Below, piece by piece: positions 55,801-64,000 of a stretch of 64,000 nucleotides of DNA. The stretch is taken from positions 32,645,001 through 32,709,000 of the forward strand of contig NC_092591.1 in assembly GCF_047663525.1 (NCBI RefSeq), written 5' to 3'. The stretch comes from Anas platyrhynchos (taxonomy: Eukaryota; Chordata; Aves; Anseriformes; Anatidae). The position numbers were made by a program, and so were the translations under genes. The notes beneath the pieces are model-generated. The model made no database searches, had not been told where the DNA came from, and worked only from the letters and a program-made list of their open reading frames with translations. Position 1 is the stretch's first letter. Each line of letters begins with the position of its first letter.

Positions 55801-58800
55801 CAAAGGTGAGACGAGTGACTCCCCATTCCTGCAGGAAACACAATACACAGAGGTGTCACACAGAAGACGTTTCTGACCAGTACGGTTACTAAATTGCAGA
55901 AATTGTAATTGCCACTGTCAAGTCCTGGGAACCTAGAGAGGGTGGTATTTTTATGTGGAGACTATGATCAATTAATAACAATACACACTATTTTTTTCCA
56001 ATATCTCTTTACAGCCGTCACTTAGTAGAAGACCAATGCCTAAGCCAAAGGCAACAAATGTGGTAGAGAGAAATCACAGGACAAAGGATGCCAACTGAGT
56101 AGACCTTTCTGCTCTGAACAGTAGACTATGATACTGCGATTCATATTTAAATGATCAGCTCTCCAAAGGGAGGACTTTAGTTCATCCTAGCAGAGCCATG
56201 AAACCCATTCCATATCTTCACACCTGTCAGAGATCCCTCACAGACCACACAGAACAGGCCTTATGAAATCGCATTCAGCCTCTTCCAGGTTTTTCCAGCA
56301 CACAGTTTGCTCTCAAAGACTATGGCCTAGTTTTCCTCAGAAACTGAATCCTATGAGAAGAGGTTTAATGGTTTCCACAGTGACCCTCCAGAGGCATCCA
56401 TCAAACAGGGCAGCAGCCCACAGATTTGTTTAGCAAACACTCCAGTCAAACACAGCCAGAAATCTGCAGAGACACTTAAAAAACCCCTCACACAACTAAG
56501 ACATGAACCAGTCTCCAAGTGAGACAGCGTGAGTCACTGCCGTGTGTACAGGACGGGCTCTTCCGCCTCAGAACCAGAGGCATCAGAAACACAAACAAAG
56601 CCAAGCAGCAGATGTTATTAGGTCACTGATGACCACTGAAAAATAAATACCAAAGGCAGGGATGGGAATCTAGAAGCAGAAAGCAGCCAGATGAGCATCC
56701 CTGCCTTTCTAAACTCTTAGAGATTGAATCCTAAAATTAATACTAGGAAGGACAGAAAACTACAACAGTTATGTACCACAATATACATTTCAGAGAGGCC
56801 CTCTATTCTTTTTTCAAAACATGAACACGACAGAACACATTACTCAGAGCAGGCGTTAAACAGACACATTCCAAGCCCTACAATGCTCCCCACAAAGAAA
56901 CTTGATTTAACACCTTCATTTTAAACTTTTCTTTTATAGGAAAGACCATACCAGCTAGAAGGCTTGGAAAAGATAGTGTTGGTCTTGAAGAAACATGTAT
57001 TACTATTTTGAAAGAAAGGAATGAAAAAAATGCAGTTAAAGTTAACAGAGATTTTAGGTAAGAGTATGAAACTTCAAATTCATATATTTTCTGCAGTTTT
57101 GAGAAGCCCAGCTTTGTACGTGCTACACAGGAAGCAGAGCACAACCGGGAAACAGCAAACTATATCGCAATAAATTGCTACATAACAACATACAAAACAC
57201 GCAAAATAAAAGTTGTGACTGACTTCTCTTAGTATTTGGCCCACAGCATAGCAAAACCTGCAGCAAAGTAGGAAAAAACCATGCACAAATGGGATCGTGA
57301 GCAAACTTCAGTGAACAAACTACGCACTTTTCTTTTGTAGAAGAGGTAGGTTTACAGATATTTGTTCAGAGGATAGGAGACCAAAAAACCTACACTACAA
57401 AGGTTAACGCAGAGCTAATGAGTACACTTCATCCGTCTGCCTCACTGGACCAGTGCACACAGTGCCTTTGCAGGAACTGTAACTGCTGAACATACTTCAG
57501 CCACTGGCAGCAAGAGCAGAAATTACATTGGACCTGAGTGTTGCATTACTGCACGTGATGGCTCCCCAGAACAGCTGAGAGCAAAGCATGAGCTGCTGCT
57601 GTTCTCTTGTCCAGCCTTTTCTGTTCAGTGCAGCAGCTCTTTCACATGAAAGCCAAACATTTACCCTTTAGTAGCATAAAAAACAACATTCTTTTCAGCT
57701 CTCTTACAGCACACGTAAGACATTCATTAACCCACCTGCCCAGTCAAAAAAGACTGTATTGAAACCAAGGTCTGGCTGATTCCACAACCATCTCTCCAAA
57801 CCCCAGATTCTGCCAACTACTTGTAGTTCTTTGATCAAAGTGGATATGTTTCTCCCACACAGCTTCAATTATCCTGTGAATACCTAGTCCTTGAACTAAA
57901 ATAAGGAGGGCATGGACTACGAATAGCCAGAACTTATTTGCAGATCAAAAGATAAAAATAACTCAGATTCTAAAAAGGCTAAAAGCAGCGCAGAAGTTGT
58001 GTCATGTGTTAACCTGCAGAAGCCAAAATAAATATCAGTGCACTTTGTGACCTGCATAGTCTGATTCTCCTCCCCAGCACCACCCTCCTCCCAAAAATAC
58101 ACATCAGGACCGTGTACAGCAGGAGGGTATTGACTAAAGTTTACCTCTCTTTCTCAGCATCTGGGCTACAGCAGGCTTTGGGGACACTGGTTCCTTCAAC
58201 CATAAGTAACGTACAGTCCTCATGACAAATACAACCCATAAGATGATTGGAAACCAAGCTTTTTTCCTTTAGTTTTGTCTCCCTAGCAAAGATACTCTCA
58301 GAAAGCTTCAAAGACAATGATAAATACAACTTTAGGGTAAGACAGAGAATAATGAGTCACATACTTTTACTGCTTGAGGAACCTTTATATTCAAGGAGAT
58401 CCTCTTGCCAGCCCTGCCTGTCTCATGATCTGCAGCTTTGACATATCACTTTAGAAACACATCCCACCAATCCATCATCCACCACTGAGGTCACTGCATG
58501 TTCCTCTGTCCTAAATGGTACATCAACAAGAAGCTCAGACCCGAGCTGTGTACTGCTGCTGTGCTGACTAACTGCAGCCTTGAACAGAAGCAGAGAAAAA
58601 AAAAAGGTCAGCTAATGTACAGGCTTCTGAGTTTTTGAAATTATAACACAAAGCCTTATTTGTATTTCACCTGTAGATCATTTTCTATTTGTCTCTAAAG
58701 GTGTATGGATATGGCACTTTTCCTGAGTAAAAGCAGCAGGAAAACAATGTCCAGAATGGAAGAAACTCTCAACCCAGAGGAGTGGGTGGATTACAGCACA

Positions 58801-61800
58801 GCCTTGTCAGGCTTGAGCTGCAGAAACAAAGGCAAAACCCACTAACTGCAAAGAGAAGCTCAAGCACCCTGGTAGTGGGTTACACAGTGGACAGTACTGA
58901 AGGTAAAGAGAAACCAGGGGATTGCCAACAATGAGCAGATAATTAGTGAGCAAAACCAAAGGTACCAGTGGGACATTAGTTTTTCCTCACTACACTTCAT
59001 AAAATTAGTGTATCCTCTTACTTTAAAGAGTCTTGGGAAGACATCTGTCGGCTGTCCTCGCACCACAAACAAGCGAGAATTGAGTTTCCTTAAACTGTTG
59101 TCCAGATCTTCCAGGGACTGGAGCAGAAATCTGCAGAGAAGAAACAAGAGCAGTTACTGTCAGTCAGACTGGCTACAGCCAAAAGACAAATGAGGAGGAT
59201 TTACACGGAACTCCAGCAAACCTGCATTAGCAATCAAACTGAAAGTTAGGACGAGAAATAGAAAAGAAGAATTATTATTCATTCCCAGTCTACCTACCAA
59301 TGTTACGAGATTGCCGTACCAGCCAGCTCTTGGCCATTCATATGCATGTTCTGCTTGGCCAGATGCAAGAGCTCTCAGTTTTTTCTTTTTTTTTCTTCTT
59401 GCAACCCCTACTCTTCCCATGTTCTCTCTCAGAGCTGTGAGTACCCCCTGACACCTGCTCCTTCCACATTACATCACCTGCATGGAGAAGAGCATAAACC
59501 ATACAATTCATATTCTTTCATGGGTTCTGTGGCACAAGGGATTTTGCATGAAGTAGAAAGATGTCCATACACTGTTTTCAGGAAAGCAATGAATTACCAC
59601 AAGTTTTAAAGTTCTGGCTCAGAGTAGGGAAGGGCATGGCAGAGAAATGTACACTCACAGCAGGGAGATGTACGCTCCTAGCTCATCAACAGCAAGATAC
59701 TGAGCACCAAAACCTCCCAAGGCAAGAATTATCCATACTTAGAATGGCTGCAAACAGAACAGCAATTTATCTTCCACCACCAAGACACAAAGATGAGAGC
59801 ACGTCAAGGCATTCAACTATTTCCATCCGTCCCCAAACCATTAAAAGGCATTTAAGTGCTTTCTGCATTACACATTTAAGCTCTTAATGTTGCATCTTGC
59901 TGGTCCCCCATTTTGCTATGAAACATCTCCAAGTGTATCACCTTTACTTTTGCATCCACACGTCATAACTTTGTCTACCTCTGTGAAAGACACCAGCTTA
60001 AAAACTTTAATCTCTGCGACAGCACGTGGCACTGCTGGCAAACTCACAACCATGAGTGAGCGACTGTCTGCCAGCCTCTGCCTTTCCCACACCGCTACGT
60101 GCCCGCTCTGCACTGTGACCTGCAAGACACGAGTGTGTCTGTATCAGCTCACTTAAGACCCTGCATAATTAAGAGGAAAGCAAAGCTACAACTGCTCTGC
60201 AAGCTGGGTGCTTCCTCCCCATGCACCTGCACTGCCCGTGATGGGAATTGCAAGCTTCGAGGCAGAACAAGCTCCCCCTGCACTTCTAGGAGAAAGGCCC
60301 TAAGGGTTCAAGGCACGAAGGAGCAAATATCCAAGTACAGAAGACCAAGAAGCAGGTCTGGGTAACCAGAACAAACTGCCCACCTTCTGGCTGTTAAATA
60401 GGAATATCACCTTTCCAAGGTGTTGTGAAAATTAAACACATGTCAGTCCTATATGGCTCCCACATGCTGTGCAATCACATGGTAAGGGATTTTCAGATTG
60501 ATAAATGTCTGGAGGCGAGGTAAAACACAAATGCTGGTGGAGCACAGACCACAAAACACAAATAAATGAAGAAAAAACAGCAAAACAAATCCCAGGCTCC
60601 CCTTGGGAAACAAGGGAACTCCAGTAACTGTGTGGAGCTTGCTAAGACATTTTTGCCTAGCAGCCAGCGGTGCTAATTTCTGACATTTTCAGTAGGTGCA
60701 CACCTTCCAGATAACATGATTTTGTATTTTAAATTCATACACTCATATATATTTCTATGACCAGAACGTAAATAAAACCACTGCCTGCTTCCCTCCCTCC
60801 ATAATGTGGGTGGAAACAAACAAGAATTACACGGATCAGGAATTACTCTTTTGGGGGCCCTGCTTGGGTTCTCCCAAACGAGGGCAGCTGGCAATACCAG
60901 CAGCACGTGAAAGGCATTTCTGCCTGCTGCAAGCGCGGTGTGTGGACAGATCAATTCAAGCTGCTAGTGAGCAGTGGCAGCACCCACGAACTCCTGCAAA
61001 TCAAACACCTGCATTGTGGTGATTTCTGCACGTTTATGGTTTTCTAGCCACCCTCCGAGGCGTGTTCTGGAAACGCTCGGCAAGCAGCCGCTCCTCTTGG
61101 ACGGAGCTGAGCTGGCAGCAGAGGCACTGGGGACACCCACAGCTTCCCCGGGCGGCCACGCGCTGCCACGTGAAGCTGTGAGGTGTGCTTCGAAGGGTTT
61201 CTGCCCAGGTGGCTGCCCTGTCTGCAGCCCCTGACGGCGGGATGTGCTTCACCTGTGTGCGGGGGAGCCTGGCGGAGGTGAATCCCTACCTGGGTTGGGT
61301 TTCCAGGCGCTTGGGCATCTGAGACCTGACCCAAGGGCGTTATGTAATAATGTCACTGTATGGACGGGCTGCGCAGAAATGACTCACCCTTTAAGTTTGC
61401 TTGTACCTGGGGGGGCTGACAGCTCCTGACAGCCACAGCCCCCGGGGGCGGGATGAGGGGGGAGCAGCACTCCCAAACCCACCGGCAGCCGCAGGGCAGA
61501 GGGGAGGCATCACGCAGCTCTACCTAACCCTAAATTAGGGGGGGAAAAGCCCTTCCCAAGGCGATGCTCGGGACCACCACCGGACCCCCACCTCCCCCTG
61601 GAGAGAGGCAGGCAGCCAAAAAAACACCCTTCCTCCCCCCCCCTCCCTCCTCGCAACCCCAACCCGTGCATCGCCCCGTGCATCGCCCCGCACTCACCGC
61701 CAGCGGTTGATGCCCACGGCGGAGGAGGCGGCGAACCAGGGGTCGAGGATGTAGATGCAGCGGAGGGAGGCGGCTCCCCGCAGCGCCTCCTGCAGCGCCG

Positions 61801-61873
61801 GGTTGTCGTGGAGCCGCAGCCCCCGGCGGAACCAGTGCACGGAGCGGGACGGGGCCGCAGCCGCCGCCGCCAT
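43848..61873 (-). CDS. CRY2: CRY2 cryptochrome circadian repressor, 11 exons, 579 aa
   Basis: Vertebrate clock protein that, with PER, represses CLOCK:BMAL1; a flavoprotein of the photolyase family. Exons (minus): 61873-61698, 59130-59022, 55828-55686, 49577-49393, 48061-47973, 47217-47077, 46595-46284, 45215-45064, 44920-44718, 44568-44479 and 43987-43848. All have GT-AG borders and phases match, totalling 1,740 nt. Markers in order: [17 protein letters not shown] (photolyase alpha/beta domain), [106 protein letters not shown] (FAD pocket, also the FBXL3 contact region in mammals), [17 protein letters not shown] and [19 protein letters not shown]. Exons 10-11 give a variable tail of about 75 residues with a nuclear-signal-like PKRKHEG and an end ...PGKSL. 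The tail's EDLSGPV and KRKHEG and the short Ala-rich N terminus point to CRY2 rather than CRY1. Confidence 0.97.
45216..46283 (-). other. CRY2: CRY2 intron 7
   Basis: 1.07 kb between exons 7 and 8 with normal GT and AG ends. No repeat, RNA gene or alternative exon recognised. Confidence 0.65.
48062..49392 (-). other. CRY2: CRY2 intron 4
   Basis: 1.3 kb between exons 4 and 5. It contains a short CA run near 48754 and otherwise nothing recognisable. Confidence 0.65.
50500..50660. promoter_or_regulatory. CpG-rich patch with two CACGTG E-boxes inside CRY2 intron 3
   Basis: About 150 bases of dense CpG sequence sit in an otherwise moderate-GC intron. Two canonical E-boxes lie at 50542-50547 and 50597-50602, both continuing as CACGTGTG on the plus strand. 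CLOCK:BMAL1 binds this motif in other clock genes, and function here is inferred. The patch could be an internal promoter or enhancer. No exon with a usable donor could be tied to it. Confidence 0.4.
53230..54830 (+). mobile_element. Decayed LINE retrotransposon (CR1/L2-type ORF2), antisense to CRY2
   Basis: Several frames on the plus strand preserve pieces of a non-LTR reverse transcriptase in the right order. [12 protein letters not shown] near 53.35 kb resembles the GDFN end of the endonuclease. [11 protein letters not shown] lies near 54.04 kb and [11 protein letters not shown] near 54.37 kb. [19 protein letters not shown] near 54.51 kb matches the RT motif usually seen as [21 protein letters not shown] followed by MPKFTDA near 54.73 kb fits LFNIFINDL...KFADD. 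Frameshifts and stops separate them, so the copy is old and inactive. The exact subfamily and ends cannot be set by eye. Confidence 0.7.
55829..59021 (-). other. CRY2: CRY2 intron 2
   Basis: 3.2 kb, AT-richer than its surroundings. It has a CACGTG at 57552-57557 and a ROR-element-like ttattaggtca at 56615-56625 (one mismatch to WAWNTRGGTCA). I recognise no repeat family or gene. Confidence 0.6.
59131..61697 (-). other. CRY2: CRY2 intron 1
   Basis: 2.6 kb. It holds CACGTG at 60023-60028, 60904-60909 and 61167-61172, and a perfect D-box TTATGTAA at 61340-61347. The part next to exon 1 (61.4-61.7 kb) continues the CpG island. No repeat family is recognised. Confidence 0.65.
61340..61347 (+). 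promoter_or_regulatory. CRY2: D-box (TTATGTAA) in CRY2 intron 1
   Basis: Exact match to the PAR-bZIP/NFIL3 site known from clock genes, about 350 bases inside the intron from exon 1. A CACGTG lies about 170 bases further in. Function is inferred from sequence alone. Confidence 0.45.
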
Positions 61874-62055
61874 CACGGGCGACCGCAGCCTCCGCGCCTC
61901 GCCCGCCCCCGGGACCGCCCCGCCGCGGTAGCGGCGGGGCGGTCCCGGGGGCGGGCGAGGCGCTGAGGCGCCGGGCTCCGGCTCCCTCCAGCGGCCACAG
62001 AAGGAGCCTTCCACCCCCCAGCCCTGTCACAACAAACACTTTATCGAGCGTTTTT
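61874..62055 (-). promoter_or_regulatory. CRY2: CRY2 promoter and 5' UTR, compressed against the SLC35C1 3' end
   Basis: The gap between the SLC35C1 polyadenylation signals (62076-62085) and the CRY2 ATG (61871-61873) is only about 200 bases. It must hold the CRY2 core promoter and 5' UTR unless they overlap the SLC35C1 3' UTR. It is a CpG island with Sp1-type GC boxes on both strands, mostly inside the inverted repeat. No TATA box is seen. Confidence 0.6.
61894..61963. repeat. Perfect 33-bp inverted repeat with 4-nt spacer, just upstream of CRY2
   Basis: Arm 61894-61926 is the exact reverse complement of arm 61931-61963, with ggta (61927-61930) between. I checked all 33 pairs, and the symmetry breaks at 61893/61964. 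Each arm is almost all G and C and contains two GC boxes (GGGGCGG at 61936-61942, GGGGGCGGG at 61947-61955, mirrored in the other arm). In transcript sense the repeat ends 20 bases before the CRY2 ATG. Confidence 0.93.
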
Positions 62056-63067
62056 GGGTGTTATATGGTTAAAAGTTTATTTATTTTTTTTCCTCAAGCG
62101 CTGAAATGGTGGTGACCGGCTAAAATGGCGGGGGGGTTGTGAGGGAACGAGCCCCGAGCAGTGAGGGGGGTACGAAGCTGGTGTGGTGTAAATCTTCTGG
62201 AAGGAGCTCAGGGCATGGAGGATGAGTGTTGTGAACCCCAGGAGATGTTGTGGGATCGCCCTGAGGGAGGAATCGCCTCAGAACAGCTTTTCCTCTCCCT
62301 TCTGTCACTGAGGGCAGAGGCACACTCACTCCTCATTAAGGCAGGCAGGCTGCTTCAGAGAGCACGCTTTCCCTCAGAGGAAAAGGTGCAGATGTATCAC
62401 ACCTGCTTTGAACATTGTTCCCAAATTAAGAACCCAGAAGGCAAGAAATACAGGCATTAGAAACCTCATCAGGATGAGTTACTGACCCACTGGAACATGG
62501 ATTTGAGGTACTGCTGCTTCTTAGGCTTACACACAGACAGGAAAAAGGAAAGAATTTCCAACCCTTCACATTGAACAAGGAAACAGGAATAAACTGTTAC
62601 TGTCAATTCCTTTGCAGCAGAACCATTTACTGAGGACTATCCCCAACAGCTTGGCTACCTGCCTCCCCCTCATGGAGGTTCAGGATTGTGCAACTTCACA
62701 CTCTGAATTCAATCAGATGTCATTCTAGATCCCTAAATACACAAAGCTCCCATCCCATTCTTTGACCACTATATGCCCACCCCACAGAGATGGGAATTGC
62801 TCAGATTAGGTCAGTCGCAATAGCCATTTTAGAAAGACATCCGTGAAAACTGATACTTCTCTAGAACACATGCTCTCACCCCGTCTCTGAGCTGGGGAGA
62901 TCCAGTGGACAAGACATAATTCATTTAGCTCTTTGGCTCTGGTTCCTGACACAGCTCCCCGTACCATTTGCAGGTGAATTTTTCCTGCTCCTTGCTCTTC
63001 TCCGCAGGAGGAAAGGAGCTCTGACAGTTAACTCCCAGGTACAGAAACAGGTGCAGGCTGAATCTGC
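62055..63067 (-). other. SLC35C1: SLC35C1 3' untranslated region
   Basis: The region runs from the stop at 63068-63070 to two overlapping AATAAA signals on the minus strand at 62080-62085 and 62076-62081, the first canonical signals found in transcript sense. It is about 1 kb long. It contains a ROR-element-like agattaggtca at 62803-62813. Confidence 0.6.
62076..62085 (-). terminator. SLC35C1: SLC35C1 polyadenylation signals (two overlapping AATAAA)
   Basis: AATAAATAAA-type doublet in transcript sense (plus tttatttatt, 62076-62085). It lies about 1 kb after the stop and about 205 bases before the CRY2 ATG. Confidence 0.65.
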
Positions 63068-63627
63068 CTACACACCAGTCTCATTTTTTTCACTGCTTTT
63101 GAGATTAGGATCCTCTTCCACTTTTCTCATCTCCAGCCCTTTTACCCATGTGTAGGCAAAGGAGCCCCCCAGCACCATCAAGTTACTTGTCCACCACAAG
63201 AAGCTCTTTGTCTCCTCAAAGTAAATAACAGCCAGCACCGTTTGGGCACAGGCCTTGGCTGTCCCGGACACATTGTGGGTGAGTGGGCTAGTGAACTTAA
63301 TCTGGAGTCCAGTCACATACCCAATGGCAAAGCCAAACACTCCTCCCAGGGTCATCATGCCCCAAAAAGTGGGGTTTCCCAGCTTGTCGAAGTGGTAGAG
63401 GGTGTGGAACTCGCCCAGCATCATCATGAGGGGGAAGAACAGGACACAGGCATTCAAGTTGTTGTAGAAGGTCAGGTGCCAGATGCTACCATCCACCACA
63501 GGCAGCACCTTCTTGGTGTAGATGGCATTGAGGGAGACACACAGGCTTGCTAAGATCCCAAAGAATATACCTGCCCATGACAGAGTGCCCTCTGCTCCTT
63601 CCTGGTCAACGCCCAGCCAGAAGCCAC
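63068..63627 (-). CDS. SLC35C1: SLC35C1 Golgi GDP-fucose transporter, last coding exon (C-terminal half)
   Basis: Multi-pass Golgi membrane carrier that brings GDP-fucose into the lumen for fucosylation; human defects cause LAD II/CDG-IIc. The exon starts after a cttctgttgcag acceptor at 63627 with two bases of a split Gly codon and ends at TAG 63068-63070, giving about 186 residues. Visible sequence: [97 protein letters not shown] and [20 protein letters not shown], alternating hydrophobic membrane helices with short loops. The lysine-containing tail ends in KNETGV. The human protein is 364 aa with the same two-exon division, so the N-terminal half lies beyond the right edge. Confidence 0.97.
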
Positions 63628-64000
63628 CTGCAACAGAAGAAATCAGGCATAATATGTACATCTGATGAAGGACTCAAAATACACAGTTGGTGATTCATCA
63701 TCTACCTAATATTGAACAACCACAGCCACAAGCAGAGACAGGCTAGAAGGCTTCCCCTTTCTATTATACTAACCCGCAAAGTGTCATGACTGCTGTCCTG
63801 GGAAGATTTATTTTAGGAGTGCAGGTAATTTGTGCTATCATTCAGTCTCATTCTCACACTGAGCAGGAAGCAGGAGTTTAGAAATTACAAAAGGACATGA
63901 ACTAAAGCTACTGTTTGTGTATAGGTCACTTCTAGAAGATCATATGATTTTTATTTTTATTTTTTTTGAAAAGATAGCAAACTGGACATGTACGTAGCAA
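63628..64000 (-). other. SLC35C1: Part of the SLC35C1 intron before the last coding exon
   Basis: Non-coding sequence with a normal acceptor at its low-coordinate end. It continues past the window. A T-rich run (about 63948-63968) is the only pattern seen. Confidence 0.75.

Follow-up and report, generated by a model that had tools for sequence, protein, structure and literature searches.

The duck CRY2 locus

In the 64,000-nucleotide stretch of duck (Anas platyrhynchos) DNA analysed here, hereafter the window, the minus strand carries the start of CRY2. A duck source agrees with a lysozyme exon whose 53 residues are all identical (53/53) to lysozyme isoform I (DEL-I; entries 5V8G and 5VJO), a protein of the Pekin duck. 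The first coding exon of CRY2 encodes 58 residues of a DNA photolyase domain whose best matches among solved structures are Cryptochrome-2 chains, and its ATG carries G at both -3 and +4. The last coding exon of the gene upstream belongs to the TPT transporter family; the only solved relative found is GDP-mannose transporter 1, a weak match (E 0.0008), and we take the gene to be SLC35C1, a name consistent with both matches. The transporter gene and CRY2 are arranged in tandem (62076-63070), the presumed poly(A) signal of the former lying about 200 bp from the start codon of the latter, and the 207 nt between these two points contain no ATG. In humans, the gap between SLC35C1 and CRY2 presumably spans tens of kilobases. 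Because the presumed poly(A) signals are so close, the duck CRY2 promoter should fall in or near the gap of about 200 bp, barring an unseen upstream exon. This gap holds a perfect inverted repeat, given below with its surroundings.

61698..61873, minus strand: CRY2 first coding exon, ATG at 61873-61871, 58 residues, structure matches
61878..61893, unstranded: left outer flank, complementary at 11/16 positions to its partner 61964-61979; perhaps a decayed outer extension of the repeat
61894..61926, unstranded: left, CRY2 promoter-proximal arm of the perfect inverted repeat; pairs with the right arm at 33/33 positions
61903..61909, minus strand: GC box GGGGCGG (motif scan)
61915..61921, minus strand: GC box GGGGCGG (motif scan)
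61927..61930, unstranded: loop of 4 nt, GGTA (TACC in the CRY2 sense)
61931..61963, unstranded: right arm of the perfect inverted repeat, 33/33 complementary to the left arm
61936..61942, plus strand: GC box GGGGCGG, mirror of 61915-61921 (motif scan)
61948..61954, plus strand: GC box GGGGCGG, mirror of 61903-61909 (motif scan)
61964..61979, unstranded: right outer flank, partner of 61878-61893
62076..62085, minus strand: two overlapping AATAAA, presumed poly(A) signals of the upstream gene (motif scan)
63068..63628, minus strand: last coding exon of the upstream gene, stop codon at 63068-63070, TPT family match

A first-pass annotation of this DNA had described a perfect 33-bp inverted repeat with a 4-nt loop, lying 20 nt from the CRY2 start codon and placing GC boxes symmetrically on both strands, and each of these points holds. 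Specifically, all 33 pairs of the two arms are reverse-complementary, giving a palindrome of 70 nt overall whose arms are 94% GC, and 20 nt separate it from the ATG. Its far edge lies 113 nt from the presumed upstream poly(A) signal (62076 minus 61963). The four copies of GGGGCGG, which we take to be the Sp1/KLF core, fall within 52 bp (61903-61954), two on each strand.

The surrounding sequence has the features of a GC-box, CpG-island promoter that adjoins a first coding exon: the observed/expected CpG ratio is 0.96 over 61700-62000, and a motif scan finds no TATAAA in 61000-62600. The canonical four-run G-quadruplex motif is absent from both strands of 61851-62000. The CRY2 region resembles CpG-island promoters with clustered GC boxes of the Sp1/KLF type in its box density, its lack of TATAAA and its position. 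It differs in that its boxes lie inside a perfect 33-bp inverted repeat, whereas the perfect stems at nine comparable sites in the genome measure 10-16 bp.

Rarity of the perfect repeat

A chance origin of the 33-bp stem is ruled out. Among 300 dinucleotide shuffles of 61700-62030, the longest stem was 13 bp and the mean 8.3 bp. In 290,315 sampled bases of the duck genome, the runner-up among perfect stems with loops of up to 60 nt measured 15 bp. This sample comprises the window and two stretches next to it, two further cryptochrome loci, and 20 segments of 10 kb from 20 contigs, with 2,001 bases counted twice where one neighbouring stretch overlaps the window; it amounts to about 0.02% of the genome and therefore serves as a background rather than a census. 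Similarly, across 42 CpG-island-like stretches (55,240 bases, that of CRY2 included), the next longest stem was 13 bp.

A whole-genome DNA search (1.26 Gb, 42 contigs), which skipped simple repeats and scored only the best candidates, found no second copy of 61850-62000. The CRY2 locus alone was matched, in its own two orientations, and for this reason a transposon, a MITE-like element or another dispersed repeat is disfavoured. Nor is the hairpin common to cryptochrome genes, since two other cryptochrome exon loci have no perfect stem of at least 12 bp (loop up to 60 nt) within about 1.5 kb on each side. Viral contigs, scanned for stray bird DNA, contained none, and a search of the titles and abstract openings of open-access papers returned no description of a CRY2 palindrome.

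The fairest background for the palindrome is provided by other inverted GC-box pairs. The pattern CCGCCCCGCC...GGCGGGGCGG at a spacing of 2-32 occurs at 11 places genome-wide, one of which is the CRY2 repeat; in the other ten matches (nine stretches, two of the matches being nested) the perfect stems measure 10-16 bp, and the best of the nine stretches reaches 19/20 pairs when a mismatch is allowed. With a looser pattern, the first 20 of the 207 listed sites have perfect stems of 8-14 bp. For a third pattern, 44 of the 430 matches, with pairs counted inside the matched stretch only, include one 17-bp stem, the rest being 12 bp or shorter. Counted on one strand with nested matches included, the GC-box pair patterns occur 207 (spacing 0-30), 430 (spacing 31-61), 174, 15 and 11 times genome-wide, and their 'backward' controls 289, 406, 322, 11 and 15 times. 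Because these controls are inverted GC-box pairs too, the counts are no evidence that hairpins are enriched or depleted.

The site with the 17-bp stem (G000:C1:28963705-28963767; L050:997-1059) extends to 27/28 pairs around a 7-nt loop. Since this second, imperfect fold-back lies on another contig, GC-box fold-backs form a rare class of which the CRY2 repeat is not the sole member. Among the sites examined, that repeat is the longest, and longer ones may exist elsewhere. The fold-back on the other contig sits at the edge of a GC-rich stretch, and its neighbour resembles what we take to be the end of a CR1 repeat. At a further site (G000:C35:10169690-10169731; L059:56-97), inverted GC boxes form a 16-bp perfect stem whose 10-nt loop holds a CCAAT/ATTGG box.

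Possible origin of the palindrome

Similarity between the two sides of the palindrome does not stop at the perfect core. Past one mismatch, five further pairs bring the match to 38/39, an extension that also appears in predicted folds, and a repeat finder extends the arms to 49 nt at 90% identity with the perfect core inside. In the adjoining outer 16 nt the flanks agree at 11 positions, a level reached or exceeded by 0.4% of 39,006 pairs of 16-mers from the same island; beyond these flanks the similarity ends (14/40 and 18/60 positions agree between the sides). All five mismatches of the 49-nt arms fall in the outer 16 positions (P about 0.002 under an even spread), in keeping with a core that has been homogenised or kept. 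These outer-flank statistics are biased, however, because the 49-nt extent was itself picked by the extension. The outer match hints that a longer repeat existed earlier and that its core was preserved or perfected. Alternatively, the match may be a chance similarity that was already there.

We estimate a probability of roughly 60% that the palindrome is a real, single-locus, GC-rich fold-back in the CRY2 core promoter, produced by template switching, that raised the number of GC boxes from two to four and acts only as duplex promoter DNA. Most likely it is a replication copying accident that doubled the GC boxes of a promoter and not a new kind of genetic element. In such an event, a replicating strand would fold back at a short internal repeat and copy its own arm (short-range template switching), turning two GC boxes into an inverted array of four that is symmetric on both strands. 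The core might have been re-copied later, or the event might have made the core alone, with the outer match pre-dating it. The palindrome would then act only as duplex DNA, offering extra candidate sites for Sp1/KLF-type factors before or across the transcription start.

Template switching fits the short loop, the perfect core, the single locus and the weaker outer homology, and the arms and spacer show the perfection and shortness, beyond chance, that mark inverted repeats of this origin. An origin by copying or by conversion between the arms, the latter already raised in the first-pass annotation, is plausible. The accessible portions of two papers describe template switching as generating perfect reverse-complement repeats in one step and as perfecting older stems (PMC8794818; PMC8604942). 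To the extent that such systems and quasi-palindrome correction are covered in the parts available of these papers and a third (PMC3820800), the CRY2 repeat shares with them perfect arms, a short loop, confinement to one locus and weaker outer homology, and differs in being much more GC-rich than typical inverted repeats of eukaryotes. If the proposed origin is correct, the repeat represents an extreme and clean example of a known mutation process, one that may have remodelled the core promoter here: a single copying step can duplicate a group of transcription-factor sites as mirror images.

Transcription through the palindrome and competing readings

The hairpin had been expected to be extremely stable if transcribed, and the prediction bears this out, with -91.7 kcal/mol for the RNA of the 70-nt core. 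Ribosome scanning is blocked by strong hairpins in the leader, and in Kozak's work the threshold for such a block reportedly lies near -50 kcal/mol. The predicted energy of the CRY2 leader depends on where transcription starts, with values of -101.8 kcal/mol for a start at 61963, -51.2 at 61940, -33.8 at 61930 and -8.4 at 61894. A hairpin transcribed in full would be expected to stop scanning ribosomes, and productive CRY2 transcripts should therefore begin no further upstream than the loop, at about 61930 or lower. This start-site prediction is the most useful product of the analysis, and it is testable in ducks. Reverse transcription or short-read assembly may fail to capture the first bases of hairpin-bearing mRNAs.

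The same energies bear on an unlikely alternative, in which the hairpin in the CRY2 5' leader is a translational brake on a clock protein, and start-site choice inside the palindrome decides whether the mRNA is blocked or can be translated. The predicted energy is -101.8 kcal/mol or lower for every leader that begins at 61963 or above, the hairpin is lost step by step as the start moves through the right arm, and it would sit just 20 nt from an ATG in a context with G at -3 and +4. However, so strong a structure should nearly abolish translation, and for that reason a constant hairpin would be a poor regulator. The mammalian CRY2 5' leader is short, and a leader of that kind in the duck would put the start inside or after the repeat.

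An assembly or library artefact, with a fold-back introduced where GC-rich DNA is hard to sequence, is unlikely. The locus comes from a single assembly, and short runs of N occur in three of the 25 sampled sources of this genome; the window itself contains no N. Perfect inverted repeats of eukaryotes are mostly GC-poor (PMC13155455), so that a palindrome with arms at 94% GC is much more GC-rich than the typical case, is unusual, and carries a slightly raised risk of artefact. Against this, the outer flanks differ from each other, one running into CRY2 and the other into the end of the upstream gene, whereas a fold-back read would stay mirror-symmetric. Because unrelated sequence thus continues on both sides, the simple version of the fold-back artefact raised in the first-pass annotation is weakened. 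In addition, the partly decayed outer homology would suit an evolved repeat, and a second, imperfect fold-back of like style exists elsewhere in the genome.

It is quite unlikely that the palindrome of this clock gene constitutes a start-site-gated translational switch and that GC-box fold-backs are a rare but recurring promoter feature arising via template switching. If such a switch existed, starts upstream of the palindrome would yield untranslatable CRY2 mRNA or a capped small hairpin RNA, and starts a few nucleotides further down would yield translatable CRY2 mRNA.

We consider it very unlikely that the palindrome extrudes as a cruciform or pauses polymerase and in this way shields CRY2 from transcription reading through from its tandem neighbour upstream. 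That gene's presumed poly(A) signal is only 113 nt away, and extrusion is calculated to pay off at a superhelical density of about -0.04 in a 2-kb domain. Nevertheless, a GC-rich palindrome centre slows the nucleation of cruciform extrusion, and a poly(A) signal needs no helper.

Finally, a start-site hairpin that yields a capped, Drosha-independent small RNA like miR-320a or miR-484 is highly improbable: a perfect stem of 94% GC is, to our knowledge, unlike known pre-miRNAs, and an Rfam search of 58000-64000 at E up to 1 matched no microRNA family and no known RNA family above chance, its only return being SCARNA6 at chance level (14.8 bits against a gathering threshold of 68) on the strand opposite CRY2. 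These TSS-miRNAs arise directly at Pol II start sites, according to the accessible portion of one report (PMC8675727); the 70-nt CRY2 hairpin shares with them a place at a presumed promoter and Pol II start, and differs in its perfect, very GC-rich stem without an Rfam match.

Outside the palindrome, the window also holds a motif that we take to be D-box-like (TTATGTAA, 61340-61347) and a presumed E-box (CACGTG, 61167-61172), candidate clock elements that lie downstream of the CRY2 first coding exon, presumably in intron 1. The available portions of two papers give no position for the mammalian CRY2 start site and report that clock factors bind the human CRY2 promoter (PMC7177918; PMC4090172).
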